The notes beneath the pieces are model-generated. The model was not told where the DNA came from and ran no database searches. It saw nothing but the letters and a program-made list of their open reading frames with translations. The position numbers were made by a program, and so were the translations under genes. Positions 36,253-41,032 of a stretch of DNA of 41,032 nt are shown in pieces (within the stretch, counting starts at the first letter, position 1; the number at the start of each line of letters is the position of its first letter). Source of the stretch: a virus. Location of the stretch: the IMG/VR virus record IMGVR_UViG_3300046534_001481, positions 1 through 41,032 of that record. One strand, given 5' to 3'.

Positions 36253-36325
36253 GTATTAACTTAGTTAATACGTAAGAATGCTGCATGTGGCAGGGTAAAC
36301 CCCTTCGAGCCAGAAAGCATGCAGC
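36253..36325 (-). ncRNA. Two-hairpin structured RNA after nadV (candidate)
   Basis: The 140-base gap between the nadV stop and the next promoter holds two strong inverted repeats: GCTGCATG/CATGCAGC (36280-36287 with 36318-36325), enclosing TGGC/GCCA and GGG/CCC inner pairs, and GTATTAAC-3 nt-GTTAATAC (36253-36271). There is no U-run for an intrinsic terminator. It may be a 3'-end stabiliser, a processed RNA or a non-canonical terminator; the strand is inferred from the flanking genes. Confidence 0.45.
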
Positions 36326-36363
36326 GTAAGCAGTTATGGACGTCCTTGTCCGTTTTGGGAATA

Positions 36364-37752
36364 TTATCGGTTAGATCGTGCGCGGATTGTCGAGAAATCG
36401 TCTTCAATCAGCAATTCGCCGTTTCTGTACACTTCGCGCAGAATGTTCTCACGACTTCCAAGTAAGTATTTACGAATCGATTCGTACCCATTGTCTGTCT
36501 TAATAAGGGCTTGTTCACCTGCCTTGCTTGCCTTTCCTTGGTCACCAACGGGGCGTTTGTAGACGTCCTGTCGAACTCCATTGATTACAGTGCTATTTGC
36601 TTTCATTGCGAACTTGAATGTATCGCGGTTGATTCCTTGCAACAGTGCACCACCCATACCGAACGCCAGATTATCAAGAGTCATGTTGGCTTCGATCAGA
36701 TTAGCAAGCAATACCTTGATGCTATCCTTATTGATTCCATCACCTTGAATAACTCTAACACAGTCAGGAAGGGTTCGAAAACCTTTATCATTTGTGGTAT
36801 AACCAAATTTCTCCATCAATATTTCGATGATTTCGATTGGTACGATAGTTGGGTCACCAGAGTCGGGACGAATAACAACTGTACCGCCACTCGCGATAAC
36901 TTCATCTTTTAACACTCCACCCCAAATATTTCTTGCGGCATTGTAGATATCATATGAATCGGAAACACAAGCGAATACTTTACCAGGGCCGCCAAATTTA
37001 ACCAACATATTTCTATATGCTTCAACTTCTTTATCTTCGCCCCAACTTGTGATCGTGCTATGTTCGGTAGCGGGAATACTGAATCCTGCCATATGTTCAT
37101 TGTAGTAACGACGACCCGCAACAAGTGCTGGAACTGTGTCTGTACCCATGAAATTCACAAGATGAGCAAGGCCGCCCATTGCTGCACTTTCATTACTTGA
37201 CACACCGCGACAACCAAAGTCATGCAATTTGAAATCAAGACCTTGAACCGAACCAGTCGTATCATAAGTCGCCTTCATCAATTGTTTGATTTTCCAGCTG
37301 TTAGTTGCAACAGTAATTGGGTACCAACCACCATCACGAAGTAACATTGTTTCGATGAAAGAGGTTAACCATGCGAATCGAGGGTCAGTATTTGTAACTT
37401 GAAACAAGACATTTCTCAATGGGATAACCATACCTTCAGGTACAGCTTCAATGCTTAATGGAAGTTTACCACCCATTTCATTGACAACGATAAGCCAATC
37501 TTCGTTGAATGGTTCGCCGTGTTCTGGAATGTATGATCGTGCTTCGTCTACATCAGCCATTGTGATAGGGGTAGTCAGATACTTTTTGGCAAACATCTGC
37601 ATACCAAATTGAAGTGATTCTGTATAATCGGGGTCATCAGAACCACGGGCTTCGCCATATGATGTGATGTATTCTGTTCCAGCAGGAATCTGTGGAGCGT
37701 GGCTGTATTTGTAACTGTCTGCCATCAGAATGAAATTTACGTTGGTATTCAT
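36364..37752 (-). CDS. nadV: Nicotinamide phosphoribosyltransferase (NAMPT/NadV)
   Basis: 462 residues, normal family length. Makes NMN from nicotinamide and PRPP. Diagnostic segments: DSYKYSHAPQIPAGTEYITS, FKLHDFGCRGVSSNESAAMG, GFSIPATEHSTITSWGEDKE (with the catalytic-type His), RPDSGDP (phosphoribosyl binding), VIQGDGINKDSIK and FGMGGALLQGINRDTFKFAM. The leader carries a hairpin and the TATAGGGAGACTATA cassette shared with the other NAD genes. Own promoter at 37818-37846. In KVP40-like phages the same enzyme feeds phage NAD+ synthesis. Confidence 0.96.
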   Translation of the reverse strand: MNTNVNFILMADSYKYSHAPQIPAGTEYITSYGEARGSDDPDYTESLQFGMQMFAKKYLTTPITMADVDEARSYIPEHGEPFNEDWLIVVNEMGGKLPLSIEAVPEGMVIPLRNVLFQVTNTDPRFAWLTSFIETMLLRDGGWYPITVATNSWKIKQLMKATYDTTGSVQGLDFKLHDFGCRGVSSNESAAMGGLAHLVNFMGTDTVPALVAGRRYYNEHMAGFSIPATEHSTITSWGEDKEVEAYRNMLVKFGGPGKVFACVSDSYDIYNAARNIWGGVLKDEVIASGGTVVIRPDSGDPTIVPIEIIEILMEKFGYTTNDKGFRTLPDCVRVIQGDGINKDSIKVLLANLIEANMTLDNLAFGMGGALLQGINRDTFKFAMKANSTVINGVRQDVYKRPVGDQGKASKAGEQALIKTDNGYESIRKYLLGSRENILREVYRNGELLIEDDFSTIRARSNR

Positions 37753-37756
37753 GTTA

Positions 37757-37807
37757 TATAGTCTCCCTATATTGTGTATTTTAAAAATAAGTGAGGTCCA
37801 CCCTCAC
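37757..37807 (-). promoter_or_regulatory. nadV: nadV leader: GTGG-loop hairpin plus ribosome-site cassette
   Basis: Hairpin GTGAGG-GTGGA-CCTCAC (37791-37807) close to the predicted mRNA 5' end, 19 AU-rich bases, then TATAGGGAGACTATA (37757-37771) and TAAC-ATG. The cassette is a 5-bp inverted repeat with the Shine-Dalgarno GGAGA in the loop. Confidence 0.65.
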
Positions 37808-37817
37808 CTATACAACC

Positions 37818-37846
37818 ATTATATCATACTAGGTTGCGTTTGTCAA
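37818..37846 (-). promoter_or_regulatory. Consensus sigma70 promoter for nadV
   Basis: TTGACA (37841-37846), 17 bases, TATAAT (37818-37823). The -35 overlaps the end of the nadM-nudix gene region. It lacks the ACATGTATAAATTAATT box of the early-gene promoters. Confidence 0.87.
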
Positions 37847-37849
37847 CCA

Positions 37850-38893
37850 TTATTTTGTAGGTAGTGCAAGCATTGTGTTGATAATATGAAAATGATCTTC
37901 GTACATCACATTTTCCATTCCTTTGAATTCCGACAAAGTGAACCATCGAGCTTCAAATGTTTCAGAACCATCACCTTTAACTTTAGGTAAGGACTGTGTT
38001 GGGTCGAGGGTCATACGAAAAGCATGAGTGATTGTTCGACCCCGAGTAGATCGTGTTGGTGAATCAAAGACTTCCCTTGCATCAATTGCTCGATGAAGTA
38101 CCTTTTCTGGAAGTTTCAAGCCGGTTTCTTCATGAAGTTCTCGCGTTACCGCTTTTTCAATTCGTTCATCAGGGTCGACAAATCCACCTGGGATAGCCCA
38201 TAAACCACGTCCGGGATATCCGGCACGTCGAACCAATAATACATGACCCGATTGAACCACAACCGCATCAACGGTTACAAATGTAGGTGCGTATGGTGCA
38301 CCTGCCCATGCAGCAAGATATGACTGAACAAAGACCCATTCCTGCTTTAACTCTGCATATTCTGGCGTTATCAGAAATGAACACAAATAATCGTAGACGT
38401 TATCAGTAATGACACCCTTGGCGAAATGGTGATCGCCTGTGAATAATAAACGCCGAATTTTAGTTGCGTCGATGCTTTCACCGTCTTCAGGATACAAAGG
38501 TTCTTCAATGAAGTCCCAATGTTTGAAATAGTTAAGGTAGAATGAACTTGAATCTTTACGGTTACCTATGATTCCGATCTTTTCCGAGTTATGAATCTGG
38601 GCGACAAGACCTACAGTAGCACCAACTTCTGCTATCCAAGCATTATCATCGTAAGTGTGGTCACCAATAGGACTGATAATCAAATTGGCGTCTGGTTCAA
38701 ATGATTGGCGAATCATCAATTTTCGTTCATCATAGGTAAATGGGTTTTTAATAGATCGAGGACCGTGTGGTGAACCTATCAACACAAGGACTTTATCGGA
38801 AATTGACAAAGCGTGCTCTATTGTTTTTTGGTGTGCAATATGGAATGGCTGGAATCTGCCGATGTACACAATTAAATCATATTCTTTTTTCAT
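37850..38893 (-). CDS. nadM: Bifunctional NMN adenylyltransferase / Nudix hydrolase
   Basis: 347 residues, the length of bacterial and phage NadM-Nudix fusions. N-terminal nucleotidyltransferase: GRFQPFHIAHQKTIEHAL (GRFQPxHxxH) and SIDATKIRRLLF. C-terminal Nudix box GGFVDPDERIEKAVTRELHE ETGL fits GX5EX7REUXEEXGU exactly (~residues 240-263). It joins NMN and ATP to NAD+; the Nudix half probably cleans up ADP-ribose or related nucleotides. KVP40 NatV has the same design. Its start is preceded by a pseudoknot-forming leader. Confidence 0.95.
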   Translation of the reverse strand: MKKEYDLIVYIGRFQPFHIAHQKTIEHALSISDKVLVLIGSPHGPRSIKNPFTYDERKLMIRQSFEPDANLIISPIGDHTYDDNAWIAEVGATVGLVAQIHNSEKIGIIGNRKDSSSFYLNYFKHWDFIEEPLYPEDGESIDATKIRRLLFTGDHHFAKGVITDNVYDYLCSFLITPEYAELKQEWVFVQSYLAAWAGAPYAPTFVTVDAVVVQSGHVLLVRRAGYPGRGLWAIPGGFVDPDERIEKAVTRELHEETGLKLPEKVLHRAIDAREVFDSPTRSTRGRTITHAFRMTLDPTQSLPKVKGDGSETFEARWFTLSEFKGMENVMYEDHFHIINTMLALPTK

Positions 38894-38946
38894 TATAGTC
38901 TCCCTATAGTGGTTATGTTACGACAATAGAACCACTCCATTGTCGC
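38894..38946 (-). promoter_or_regulatory. nadM: nadM leader: H-type pseudoknot next to the ribosome-site cassette
   Basis: On the minus strand, CGACAAT (38939-38945) pairs with ATTGTCG (38921-38927), and AGTGGTT (38930-38936) in that loop pairs with AACCACT (38908-38914). Connecting loops are 2, 2 and 6 nt, close to an ideal H-type pseudoknot. TATAGGGAGACTATA (38894-38908) and the ATG follow at once, so folding would sit against or block the ribosome site. The GTGG loop and cassette recur before nadV and pnuC. Confidence 0.7.
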
Positions 38947-38957
38947 GAGGTACTTCT

Positions 38958-39158
38958 TTAAATTTTATTTACTAGTCGTCTTACATCTTTCATAGCGGCA
39001 ATACAGATATCTCCTGTATACATACCATTTTCTTGATCGTCAGACCACGCTTCGACCAATGCAACTGTTCCTTTGAGGTGTTCAAATTGCAATTCTAAGA
39101 ACTGAACATATGCATCATTGATTGTAAGACCGATATACTTTGGTGGTTTTTGTGTCAT
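38958..39158 (-). CDS. 66-residue protein inside the NAD operon, unknown
   Basis: TINDAYVQFLELQFEHLKGT VALVEAW, then GDICIAAMKDVRRLVNKI: two helices, no known motif. The ATG overlaps the nadR stop (TAATG), so it is made with the NAD enzymes. It could be an accessory subunit or an unrelated insertion; no function can be assigned. Confidence 0.7.
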   Translation of the reverse strand: MTQKPPKYIGLTINDAYVQFLELQFEHLKGTVALVEAWSDDQENGMYTGDICIAAMKDVRRLVNKI

Positions 39159-40204
39159 TATACGTTTCCTAATAAATTACTAACGGCTTGTTCTGCCAAT
39201 CCGGTTCGTAGTTCCCAGTCAGGTAATCCATCGAGAGTTCTAAAATCTGCGATGCCAACGAAATTCCTTTTACATTTACTAAGATATGCAACCAAATCTG
39301 TATAAAATAACCAACGTTCTTCATATTCTGGTAGAATTCGGGTTCCATCATCAGTCCATTCTTTATATGGCTTCAACAATATGTACAGATCAAACTTGTC
39401 CAATGTTGCTTCATATAATAGATTAGATTCAAGTTCCTTGTCGCGTTGTTTCATATATATCTTGCTGAATAAATGTGTTGTGAATGATTCCGTATCTGAT
39501 ACAGTGTTCTGGTGTGTCGATTGTGCAGCGTGAAGCAAGGTTTTCTGCCCTGCAATAATTGCATAGAAATCACTGGCGTCAAGATCATTATTCCTGACTT
39601 CGGATAATGTACGACCGTATTCAGGCACCAAACCCATATTAAACTTCACGGCAAGATGATTTGTCAATGTTGATTTTCCGGTACTTTCAGGTCCGATGAC
39701 TACAATGTTTCGTTGATAATATGGTTTAACAACATCTGGTAAATAATCATAATAACCTGTAGGATTGTTTCTAACCTTAGTTCCCGAAACGTGAAATTGA
39801 TCACGATTCAAGTCTAATGGAATCCAACGAGCATTAAGTTCCTTTGCCAGTCGTTCACCGTATGCGTCATTTGTGAATACAGCATCGATAGATGAAACCA
39901 CAATTCGGCTAATCAATTTGACCCAACGGTACCAATAATCATCATCAATGGCCGTACCATTTTCATCCAATTCTGTATCACCAATATAATCGATCAATTC
40001 AATAATATTGACATTCGAATCCTTATATTGTTCTCTAAGCCAATTCCCTCGGGTGGATAAAGGGATAGGATCATCCTCTGCACCAGTTAACATAACGTCA
40101 ACATTCTTACAGGTCGCCGCGGCGTGATCAATCATGAGTTTATGACCATTATGAAATGGCATGAACTTTCCTAAACAGAATCCTTGCTTATATGCTTTTC
40201 TCAT
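39158..40204 (-). CDS. nadR: NadR-like NMN adenylyltransferase / ribosylnicotinamide kinase
   Basis: 348 residues from ATG 40204, set by the ATGA overlap with pnuC. N-terminal nucleotidyltransferase: GFCLGKFMPFHNGHKLMIDH (HxGH motif). C-terminal kinase from ~residue 175: Walker A GPESTGKST and DTESFTTHLF, as in NadR RNK domains. The N-terminal HTH repressor domain of enteric NadR is absent, so it acts as enzyme only. It turns nicotinamide riboside imported by PnuC into NMN and then NAD+. Confidence 0.93.
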   Translation of the reverse strand: MRKAYKQGFCLGKFMPFHNGHKLMIDHAAATCKNVDVMLTGAEDDPIPLSTRGNWLREQYKDSNVNIIELIDYIGDTELDENGTAIDDDYWYRWVKLISRIVVSSIDAVFTNDAYGERLAKELNARWIPLDLNRDQFHVSGTKVRNNPTGYYDYLPDVVKPYYQRNIVVIGPESTGKSTLTNHLAVKFNMGLVPEYGRTLSEVRNNDLDASDFYAIIAGQKTLLHAAQSTHQNTVSDTESFTTHLFSKIYMKQRDKELESNLLYEATLDKFDLYILLKPYKEWTDDGTRILPEYEERWLFYTDLVAYLSKCKRNFVGIADFRTLDGLPDWELRTGLAEQAVSNLLGNV

Positions 40205-40812
40205 TTCTGTTCCTGATATGCTTTGTACCAAGCGATTCCACCCATTGTTGCCAGAACTAAGAATACAACATACAGACCACTAACAACAACCAAACCTTTT
40301 GCGAAGTATACACCGATCGCGATTATATCCATTGCAACCCATAAGTACCACGATTCTACAAATTTCTTGATCATTAAGATTTGTGCAGCAATGCTCATCC
40401 AAGTCGTTAATGCGTCGATATATGGAAATGATGCGTCTGTGAAGTTTGACATATACATTCCGGTCAGACCTGCCATTACCAAGATGTTCAATACGATTAA
40501 TACTAAAGTGGAGGTGTTCATTGATTCGACAGGAAGGTCGTCGGATGCATTCGGACCTTTCTTCATCCACCAATACCAACCTAAGAATTGCACAGGTAGG
40601 AAAAAGGCGATGTTCAGCCATGCGTCACTATATAATTGATAATGCCAGAAAAGCGGACCAAGAAAGGCCACGCCGATAACACCCCAGAACCATGTCCAGA
40701 TGTTTTGTTTTATTGCGAGGTATACACAGGTCGCGGATGCGATTGTACCGGCTAATTCGACATAGCCCCATGTGTGATTGAAATAATCGATTACTACTTG
40801 TAGAATGTCCAT
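40201..40812 (-). CDS. pnuC: PnuC-like nicotinamide riboside transporter
   Basis: 203 residues with about seven hydrophobic segments. The PnuC pattern is visible in SATCVYLAIKQNIWTWFWGV IGV, WLNIAFFLPVQFLGWYWWMK and FVESWYLWVAMDIIAIGVYF AKGL. It would move nicotinamide riboside across the inner membrane, trapped by NadR phosphorylation. First gene of the NAD operon, with its own promoter, hairpin and the shared cassette; stop overlaps nadR (ATGA). Confidence 0.93.
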   Translation of the reverse strand: MDILQVVIDYFNHTWGYVELAGTIASATCVYLAIKQNIWTWFWGVIGVAFLGPLFWHYQLYSDAWLNIAFFLPVQFLGWYWWMKKGPNASDDLPVESMNTSTLVLIVLNILVMAGLTGMYMSNFTDASFPYIDALTTWMSIAAQILMIKKFVESWYLWVAMDIIAIGVYFAKGLVVVSGLYVVFLVLATMGGIAWYKAYQEQK

Positions 40813-40861
40813 TATAGTCTCCCTATAATTGAGGTTGAAATCAAGAACAGACCACCTGTTC
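40813..40861 (-). promoter_or_regulatory. pnuC: pnuC leader: GTGG-loop hairpin plus ribosome-site cassette
   Basis: Hairpin GAACAG-GTGGT-CTGTTC (40845-40861), 17 bases, then TATAGGGAGACTATA (40813-40827) and ATG. A short pseudoknot AGGT/ACCT between the loop region and the downstream CAACCTC is possible, parallel to the nadM leader. Confidence 0.65.
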
Positions 40862-40870
40862 CTAATGTTT

Positions 40871-40878
40871 TATTTATA
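40871..40878 (-). promoter_or_regulatory. Late-promoter octamer just after the pnuC early promoter
   Basis: Exact TATAAATA, minus strand, in the position where the other early promoters have TATAAATT. It could add late expression of the NAD operon (predicted start near 40865), or be a variant of the early downstream box. Confidence 0.4.
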
Positions 40879-40883
40879 CATGT

Positions 40884-40912
40884 ATTATAACACAAACTAA
40901 AGGGTTTGTCAA
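40884..40912 (-). promoter_or_regulatory. Consensus sigma70 promoter for the NAD operon
   Basis: TTGACA (40907-40912), 17 bases, TATAAT (40884-40889), then ACATGTATAAATA. Lies between the tRNA gene and pnuC. Confidence 0.88.
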
Positions 40913-40927
40913 CACATATTTTTGAAT

Positions 40928-41002
40928 TGGAAGGGGCGCTAGGGTTCGAACCTAGGATACCAGATTCAAAATCTGGCGTGTTTCCGGCTACACTACGCCC
41001 CC
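40928..41002 (-). tRNA. tRNA-Gln, anticodon UUG, with encoded CCA
   Basis: Full cloverleaf: acceptor GGGGGCG with CGCCCCT (one G-U pair at position 1-72), D arm GTGT/ACAC, anticodon stem CCAGA/TCTGG with loop TTTTGAA (anticodon TTG), T arm CTAGG-TTCGAAC-CCTAG, discriminator U and CCA at 40928-40930. It would supplement decoding of CAA. The U73 and the G1-U72 pair differ from the usual G73 of bacterial tRNA-Gln. Confidence 0.9.
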
Positions 41003-41032
41003 AATATTAGAATGTACAATGAATGAATCCCT

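Follow-up and report, generated by a model that had tools for sequence, protein, structure and literature searches.

A predicted tandem-hairpin leader at the ribosome-binding sites of phage NAD-salvage genes

The NAD-salvage genes of a 41,032-base virus contig (the whole of which was analysed and is called the window here), like those of many other phages, are preceded by a leader of two tandem hairpins, a 5' hairpin (HP1) and, just downstream, a hairpin that presents the Shine-Dalgarno sequence in its loop (HP2). By sequence comparison, both hairpins are kept through compensatory change and show a strong preference for genes whose products synthesise or take up NAD precursors, and the conserved unit is this tandem pair rather than the pseudoknot of two interlocking stems (stems 1 and 2) that a preliminary description of the window had proposed. 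That such an element and its regulon exist we hold with high confidence; the full explanation that we favour, a cis-acting translational control element common to the NAD-salvage genes of this and many phages, is put forward with moderate confidence.

The NAD operon of the window and its leaders

The minus strand of the window carries an NAD operon, identified with Pfam, that consists of pnuC, a gene for a NadR-like protein, a 66-aa ORF, nadM-nudix and nadV. Its genes and leader elements, in the direction of transcription, are as follows.

40842..40864, minus strand: HP1 of the pnuC leader, UAGGAACAG-GUGGU-CUGUUCUUG, with TATAAATA upstream (sequence, fold, arm pairing)
40813..40827, minus strand: HP2 of the pnuC leader, a 15-mer identical to HP2 of nadM-nudix (exact match, fold)
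40201..40812, minus strand: pnuC, nicotinamide riboside/mononucleotide transporter family (PF04973, 9.5e-47; phrog_1880)
39158..40231, minus strand: NadR-like adenylyltransferase and kinase, whose start (ATG 40204 or TTG 40231) overlaps the end of pnuC (PF13521, 3.1e-21; phrog_3462, 1.2e-63)
38921..38945, minus strand: HP1 of the nadM-nudix leader, a 10-bp stem (one G.U) with pentaloop GUGGU, which holds stem 1 of the preliminary description (sequence, MFE fold, arm pairing across seven sister leaders)
38909..38920, minus strand: nadM-nudix leader, linker that joins HP1 to HP2, predicted single-stranded; most of the 3' strand of stem 2 falls here (AACCACT, 38908-38914), and its pairing is not kept in the sister leaders
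38894..38908, minus strand: HP2 of the nadM-nudix leader, UAUAG-GGAGA-CUAUA, with the Shine-Dalgarno sequence as pentaloop and a 3' strand that abuts the AUG (fold; pairing kept at the same register in other phages)
37850..38893, minus strand: nadM-nudix, NMN adenylyltransferase and Nudix (PF01467, 4.5e-10; PF00293, 1.1e-23)
37788..37810, minus strand: HP1 of the nadV leader, UAGGUGAGG-GUGGA-CCUCACUUA (sequence, fold, arm pairing)
37757..37771, minus strand: HP2 of the nadV leader, a 15-mer identical to HP2 of nadM-nudix (exact match, fold)
36364..37752, minus strand: nadV, nicotinamide phosphoribosyltransferase (PF04095, 7.9e-55; PF18127, 1.3e-19)

The 15-mer TATAGGGAGACTATA occurs exactly three times in the window, once each at pnuC, nadM and nadV and always next to the start codon on its 5' side, and each copy is accompanied by a 5' hairpin with the loop GUGGU or GUGGA. 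A loop-free double-hairpin scan of the window returned the same three places and no others, and a scan of the start region of the NadR-like gene found no two-hairpin leader of its own. The Vienna minimum free energy (MFE) structures of the three leaders show hairpin 1 and the Shine-Dalgarno hairpin (-17.3, -18.2 and -16.9 kcal/mol; z -2.6, -4.5 and -3.4). HP2 of the nadM-nudix leader is a weak hairpin (-2.2 kcal/mol) with the Shine-Dalgarno sequence in its loop, which might allow free translation. The 66-aa ORF (38958-39158, minus strand), between the NadR-like gene and nadM, has no Pfam or PHROG match. A fluoride riboswitch-like match within the nadM coding region (38387-38446, minus strand; E 0.072, far under the gathering score) is probably due to chance.

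The preliminary description had read an H-type pseudoknot directly upstream of the nadM-nudix ribosome site, and the pairing that it reported can be confirmed: both interlocking 7-bp stems are present on the minus strand (CGACAAT-GG-AGTGGTT-CT-ATTGTCG-TAACAT-AACCACT, then ATAGGGAGACTATA-ATG), with loops of 2, 2 and 6 nt. The 3' strand of stem 2, which had been placed two bases short of TATAGGGAGA, actually runs into it, its last T (38908) being the first base of TATAGGGAGA. Stem 1 pairs as claimed but does not end at 7 bp; three more pairs, GGA/TCT (one G.U), make it the 10-bp hairpin CGACAATGGA-GTGGT-TCTATTGTCG, with a nearest-neighbour energy of -12.0 kcal/mol versus -5.4 for the 7-bp stem alone, and for stem 2 to form the top three pairs of this hairpin must be broken.

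Two IMG/VR contigs also have the 15-mer ahead of nadM and nadV, and there the HP1 loops are GGGGU or GGGGC. Across the seven sister leaders the HP1 stem sequences differ, yet the arms pair in 44 of 49 positions (seven pairs each), and when the 3' arms were exchanged among the seven leaders a mean of 27.5 of 49 was paired (P = 0.0006). The seven Watson-Crick pairs of stem 2 in the nadM-nudix leader are uncommon among shuffled linkers (P = 0.009, or 0.057 when G.U is also counted), but the six sister leaders, i.e., the two others of this phage and the four of the two nearest relatives found, lack stem 2 and offer just 2-4 Watson-Crick pairs in its place, the same as shuffles; loop-linker pairing exceeds four Watson-Crick pairs in one of the seven. 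The loss of pairing in close relatives that had been named beforehand as telling against the pseudoknot was thus found at stem 2, whereas stem 1 stays paired. Because the six sister leaders pair no more than shuffles at stem 2, we take stem 2 to have probably arisen by chance in this leader alone and stem 1, by the same comparison, to be real and conserved. A pseudoknot whose stem 2 would keep the leader closed over the ribosome site, and which would cost the apex of the stronger hairpin, seems to us scarcely credible; it was rejected as the main structure since stem 2 is not conserved, and as a conserved mechanism it appears largely refuted. The wider proposal, that RNA structure at the ribosome site controls translation, loses its pseudoknot form and otherwise gains support, as a covarying structured leader recurs at nadM, nadV and sometimes pnuC across many phages.

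The 15-mer alone is not specific to NAD genes, because in 26 IMG/VR loci (L001 and 25 more) it directly precedes one unrelated gene starting MAIAQAMC. These 26 loci pass the loop-free scan (6-bp stem, loop UGAGG or UGAAG) and fail the R..G. loop rule used below; neither the 15-mer nor the loop-free scan is diagnostic of NAD genes. Altogether 51 IMG/VR stretches contain the 15-mer, and by eye only three of them, from the two contigs above, have it at NAD genes. The sequence CACTATAGGGAGA resembles the beginning of a T7 promoter, and a T7-type promoter was considered and dropped: the similarity ends near -7, and relatives have other inverted repeats in place of the inverted repeat TATAGGGAGACTATA.

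The leader across phages and in bacterial genomes

The same layout recurs with other sequences at nadV (13) and nadM (80) loci, for instance as UCUAGACG-AUAGA-CGUCUAG followed by GUAAA-GGAGA-UUUAC. HP1 has a stem of variable sequence and a purine-rich loop, mostly of 5 nt, and HP2 has a variable stem with the Shine-Dalgarno sequence as its pentaloop. A scan of 148 loci including the window (seven duplicates left out), in which an HP1 loop R..G. and a GGA in HP2 were required, gave 71 distinct matches, nearly all before nadM or nadV, of which a few with long spacing or odd loops are doubtful. The HP1 loops among the 71 are AUAGA (30), AGAGA (16), GGGGU (4), AGUGA (4) and rarer ones; the HP2 loops are chiefly GGAGU (30), GGAGA (23) and GGAUU (8), with GGAG as the commonest core, and GGAAC also occurs.

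To avoid choosing for stems, HP2 was also scored in a register fixed by the GGA alone, with a 5-nt loop. Watson-Crick pairs 1-4 then formed at frequencies of 0.85, 0.85, 0.80 and 0.88 before nadM (n = 74) and 0.86, 0.89, 0.86 and 0.86 before nadV (n = 63); the values were 0.29-0.33 before 853 other genes on the same contigs, and independent columns would yield 0.30-0.54 for nadM and 0.39-0.62 for nadV. Other loop sizes gave 0.13-0.60 at nadM and nadV, part of which is probably due to A- and T-rich flanks. For HP1, with the register taken from the loop motif alone, pair 1 formed at 0.95 (nadM), 0.88 (nadV) and 0.31 (other genes), counted on the genes in which the motif is present (58/74 nadM, 49/63 nadV and 204/853 others). 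HP1 pairs 3-5 dip and are often A.A, A.G or C.A, a recurrent internal mismatch. An HP2 stem of at least four Watson-Crick pairs is found at 75% of 76 nadM-class genes (among which the window's leaderless NadR-like gene is counted), at 90% of 50 nadV genes and at 4% of 873 others. Thirteen "other" genes have both hairpins, some with a doubtful HP1, and these are seven nadV genes missed by the filter, two pnuC, three phrog_1843 and one phrog_12218. A covariation table with two-sided change in 11 of 12 pairs is illustrative only, its rows having been picked for their stems and hence biased, and alignments A3, A6 and A7, in which MAFFT misplaced the HP1 register, were left out of the counts.

When IMG/VR was scanned with a DNA-only pattern (GATAGAC...AAGGAGTTT...ATG), at least 120 stretches and at least 102 distinct places were obtained. 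Among the places listed, 71 have both stems of at least four pairs, and 66 of these precede nadM or nadV (41 nadV and 19 nadM by short motif, four nadV and two nadM by eye), the remaining five preceding short ORFs of 108 aa (two), ~125 aa (two) and 67 aa (one). Of the 31 listed places that miss a stem, the motif assigns nine to nadM or nadV; it is absent from the other 22, two of which look nadM-like.

The phrog_1843 gene (function unknown, ~214 aa) lies upstream of nadM in L111:4268-4909, L127:4329-4976 and L132:3928-4572, with both hairpins in the first two and HP2 plus a doubtful HP1 in the third, and is a candidate NAD-linked gene. A two-hairpin leader also precedes 108-aa proteins, alike by eye, at L102:4673-4999 (phrog_12218, function unknown), L229:456 and L277:7794. 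A family of ~125 aa with a GEDPNCD-GG motif, by eye, lies between nadM and nadV in L052:6380-6760 and directly follows a leader at L213 and L312. In the nadV leaders of L087, L093, L094, L096, L097, L101, L103, L106, L118, L124 and L133, HP1 has AAGYCC before it and GGCA after it, and as these flanks span the AUAGA and AGAGA loop classes they represent conservation beyond pairing. L133 is also a second phage with the leader at pnuC (PF04973).

The models R1 and R2 recover the leader unevenly. Model R1 did not recover the window leaders at E<=1. Model R2, run on the window with no filters, returned nine weak matches, in which two of these leaders took first and third place (E 0.45 and 3.9) and the pnuC leader was missed; what connects the loop types is therefore their architecture and gene association. 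On whole records R2 matched 17 of 40, with 36 matches in total, 13 of these 17 records having two each, counted irrespective of the gene behind.

Eighteen named phages were inspected by eye. Both hairpins are visible in five: DSS3P8 (AUAGA), BUCT-ZZ01 (AAAGA), BcepSaruman (tetraloops AAGA and AGGA), and K64-1 and GAP32 (hexaloop GNNGUA). HP2 alone is seen in Mendera, D484, RB43, Matisse and LPCS28, the hairpins are ambiguous in KVP40, Arash and phiM19, and neither is seen in XM05, Bambus, CcrPW, AS-gz and X66; the leader is not universal. HP2 of D484, UAUAG-GGAGC-CUAUA, is very near the window version, and in the GGAGC loops of D484 and RB43 the outer G and C can pair, leaving a triloop; HP2 of KVP40 nadM has 3 bp at most. 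R2 found only DSS3P8 among the named phages, with its nadM and nadV leaders at 89835-89879 and 91229-91270 of KT870145.1, and missed the four others with visible hairpins. Folding of 13 leaders from eight named phages gave z from -3.4 to +0.8, below -2 in three of the 13; shuffled sequences fold at least as well as the RB43 leader (z +0.81), and the MFE structure of the DSS3P8 nadV leader does not show the expected HP1.

Promoter-like sites sit just upstream of HP1, which suggests that HP1 often lies near the mRNA 5' end: a -35/-10 pair was found there in 29 of 65 leaders versus a shuffled mean of 6.5, and the late-type promoter TATAAATA in 13 of 65 versus 0.45. T4 RegB is an endonuclease that acts at GGAG, and one could therefore suppose that the leader serves mRNA processing or stability, with HP1 as a 5'-end stabiliser and HP2 either offering GGAG to such an enzyme or simply displaying the Shine-Dalgarno sequence. 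The frequent start of the mRNA at HP1 and the GGAG core of most HP2 loops would suit this reading, which we nevertheless consider improbable, as it does not explain why HP1 loops fall into classes, why the leader goes with NAD genes or why some HP2 loops are GGAUU or GGAAC. An intrinsic terminator, i.e., a hairpin with a U run after it, was dropped as a candidate: over 65 leaders the linker after HP1 is variable, with 44% A, 29% U and 5% G, though single leaders, e.g., the window's nadV leader, do have a U run.

One strict AUAGA-type pattern, applied to 84,980 bacterial genomes, gave 42 places, three of them true by eye. A Robiginitomaculum MAG has leaders at nadM and nadV, with homing-endonuclease-like ORFs, by eye, on the contig. 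Thalassospira xianhensis has leaders at nadM and nadE, with genes for a nicotinate phosphoribosyltransferase and an isochorismatase-family protein downstream; in its nadE HP1 an A.A mismatch separates two apical pairs from an outer stem. The Thalassospira locus is probably a provirus, because a GOLLD RNA with a tRNA inside (L373:924-1396, minus strand) lies ~6.7 kb upstream of nadM, and GOLLD RNAs are linked to phages. In a Rhodospirillales MAG, leaders at nadM and nadV lie between PspA/sigma-54-activator genes and sugar-metabolism genes; no phage family was found in the ten neighbour genes scanned, and this chromosome segment has only the nadM-nadV pair. Model R2 found nothing further convincing in 385 alphaproteobacterial genomes: its four matches besides G023 itself either precede short LuxR-like ORFs, by eye (L364, L365), or have no downstream ORF listed (L366, L367), and none was counted. 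No matches were obtained when bacterial genomes were searched with a two-row NadM alignment, nor in a search with the window's NadR-like protein.

Probable translational control and its candidate ligands

The leader wraps the ribosome-binding site of NAD genes and therefore probably controls when they are translated. We think it likely, from the position of the hairpins, that this control would act through HP2: when closed, HP2 would hide the Shine-Dalgarno sequence and the spacer, lowering initiation. A factor reading the HP1 loop, and probably also the similar HP2 loop, would set the balance between the open and closed states, and the NAD genes of one phage would thereby respond together.

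As to this factor, the class of the HP1 loop at nadM equals that at nadV in 24 of 26 contigs, contigs with untypable loops having been dropped and the loop finder slightly favouring G at the next-to-last position; shuffling gives 11.4, and none of 10,000 shuffles was as high. That the loop class varies between contigs yet agrees within them leans towards a co-evolving protein, but the concordance could also reflect inheritance or leader exchange within a genome. Overall, we judge the chances that the ligand is a protein rather than a metabolite to be about even.

A dedicated third regulator encoded beside the cassette was sought and rejected, no family being near the frequency of nadM and nadV in an all-against-all comparison of 3382 ORFs from 92 loci: nadM is present in 92 (by sampling), nadV in 84, and the next recognised real family, which by eye is macro domain-like (L116:6047 and grouped loci), in 22. 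The larger ORF families with counts between those of nadV and the macro domain are, by their look, antisense ORFs of nadM and nadV. The absence of a third cassette gene, together with the leader on a chromosome segment that has only nadM and nadV, leaves NadM, NadV, a host factor or the RNA itself. Among these NadM (NadM-Nudix) is the candidate that we tentatively favour as the ligand protein. In such a scheme the NadM-Nudix of the cassette would repress its own mRNA and the nadV, pnuC and nadE mRNAs when NAD is sufficient, and NAD depletion by a host defence would release the repression. A NadM match is present in 20 of 20 records (one of only 64 residues at 34%), which is no independent test, because the records were sampled by nadM and nadV.

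The main rival is an NAD-family riboswitch, in which HP1, the linker and HP2 would jointly make up a binding pocket. Its ligand, NAD+, NMN, NR or ADP-ribose, would close HP2 over the ribosome site with no protein involved. What unites the regulon would then be a metabolite and not a pathway (nadM, nadV and pnuC, and in Thalassospira nadM and nadE together with the nicotinate phosphoribosyltransferase and isochorismatase-family genes), and the leader is kept in the Rhodospirillales MAG, where none of the ten neighbours scanned is a phage gene; a precedent for sequestration of the ribosome-binding site exists in the NAD+-II riboswitch (PMC7749635). On the other hand, a pocket is hard to reconcile with so few constant unpaired positions, given HP1 loops as different as AUAGA, AGAGA, AGUGA, GGGGU, GUGGU and, by eye, the tetraloop AAGA and hexaloop GNNGUA, and with a variable, A-rich linker containing 5% G in 65 leaders; loop classes that differ among genomes and agree within a contig suit a co-evolving protein better. 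We regard such a riboswitch as possible, if rather unlikely.

A host protein of the CsrA/RsmA type that bridges both hairpins and blocks the ribosome appears very unlikely to us. The targets of these proteins have a Shine-Dalgarno GGA in a hairpin loop and a second hairpin upstream, and the phage leaders share the hairpin over the Shine-Dalgarno sequence, the upstream hairpin and the GGA in the HP2 loop (in the counts given above, from a scan that required GGA), with A-N-GGA in many HP2 hairpins. The likeness ends at the upstream hairpin, as the commonest HP1 loops, AUAGA (30/71) and AGAGA (16/71), lack GGA, which makes host CsrA weak as a ligand. In addition, the leader is tied to NAD genes, and the strict pattern gave three true places among 42 in bacterial genomes.

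Relation to known systems

No leader matched an Rfam family at curated thresholds in the window, in 12 leader loci or in seven more, the matches there being tRNAs, a group I intron, GOLLD and one suhB RNA (56.4 bits; L143:4816-4896, upstream of a nadM leader). Below threshold, coding-strand overlap with a leader of the window is seen for one family alone, cow-rumen-4 RNA (RF02948), at the nadV leader (37756-37813, minus strand), with 20 bits versus a gathering score of 48.5 and E values of 8.9 and 2.4, i.e., at chance level. Its printed consensus does have two hairpins, with AAGGAGG at the second; however, several HP2 pairs are broken in the alignment, the family is annotated as an sRNA, and six other leader loci gave no match to it at E<=10. 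Identity with a known RNA family was thus rejected, there being no Rfam match at the leader above the curated threshold and the cow-rumen-4 match being at chance level and not recurring. The two-hairpin NAD leader is apparently uncatalogued as an RNA family. In open-access full texts we found no report of such a leader or of phage NAD-salvage gene control, and in those on cow-rumen-4 none of such an NAD leader; 104 RNA candidates are the subject of PMC2864571.

Similar to the phage leader, the NAD+-II riboswitch (pnuC motif) stands before pnuC and other NAD precursor genes and sequesters the ribosome site. It is described as having P1, P1a, a possible pseudoknot and mostly highly conserved positions (PMC7749635). 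In contrast, the phage leader has two simple hairpins with variable stems and linker, lies mainly at phage nadM and nadV, and has no conserved pseudoknot at the ribosome site (more than four loop-linker pairs in one of seven leaders). An Rfam search for NAD+-II gave nothing at the gathering threshold in the window and nothing at E<=10 in 36300-41032, though the Rfam copy may not hold this class. NAD+-I (nadA motif) is an mRNA leader with two tandem domains that controls NAD genes (PMC10702441), and the phage leader is likewise a tandem, two-part mRNA leader at NAD genes; it differs in that it has no Rfam match and carries the Shine-Dalgarno sequence in the loop of HP2.

Like the phage leader, the autogenous operators of T4-like phages (gp32, gp43, RegA) are leader RNA structures or sequences at the ribosome site that are common to co-regulated phage genes. 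These operators are pseudoknots, single hairpins or unstructured sites, and we know of none that is a tandem hairpin pair on NAD genes.

Phage NAD-salvage genes are thought to undo NAD-depleting immunity, and NARP2 is a label for the phage NAD+ salvage genes NadV, NadM and NadR. NARP2 in vibrio phages is the subject of PMC12028318, and the three genes are described in PMC9503650, within whose main text the word "riboswitch" is absent and "hairpin" denotes only a protein beta-hairpin. The window holds enzymes of this cassette, NadV with NadM and a NadR-like protein, by Pfam and PHROGs. The salvage genes are thus already known, and the leader is the new part.

Being compact, widespread and covarying, the leader offers an experimental handle on the control of phage NAD genes, and it points to unknown genes, phrog_1843 and phrog_12218, that are possibly part of an NAD response. 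It may also add a new RNA sensor or a new case of an enzyme acting as a repressor. We see roughly equal odds for and against its being a virus-borne NAD sensor, an RNA control element of a new class (a third riboswitch of the NAD family, or else an operator to which a moonlighting NadM-Nudix binds), that would turn on NAD-restoring counter-defence genes only once a host defence drains NAD.
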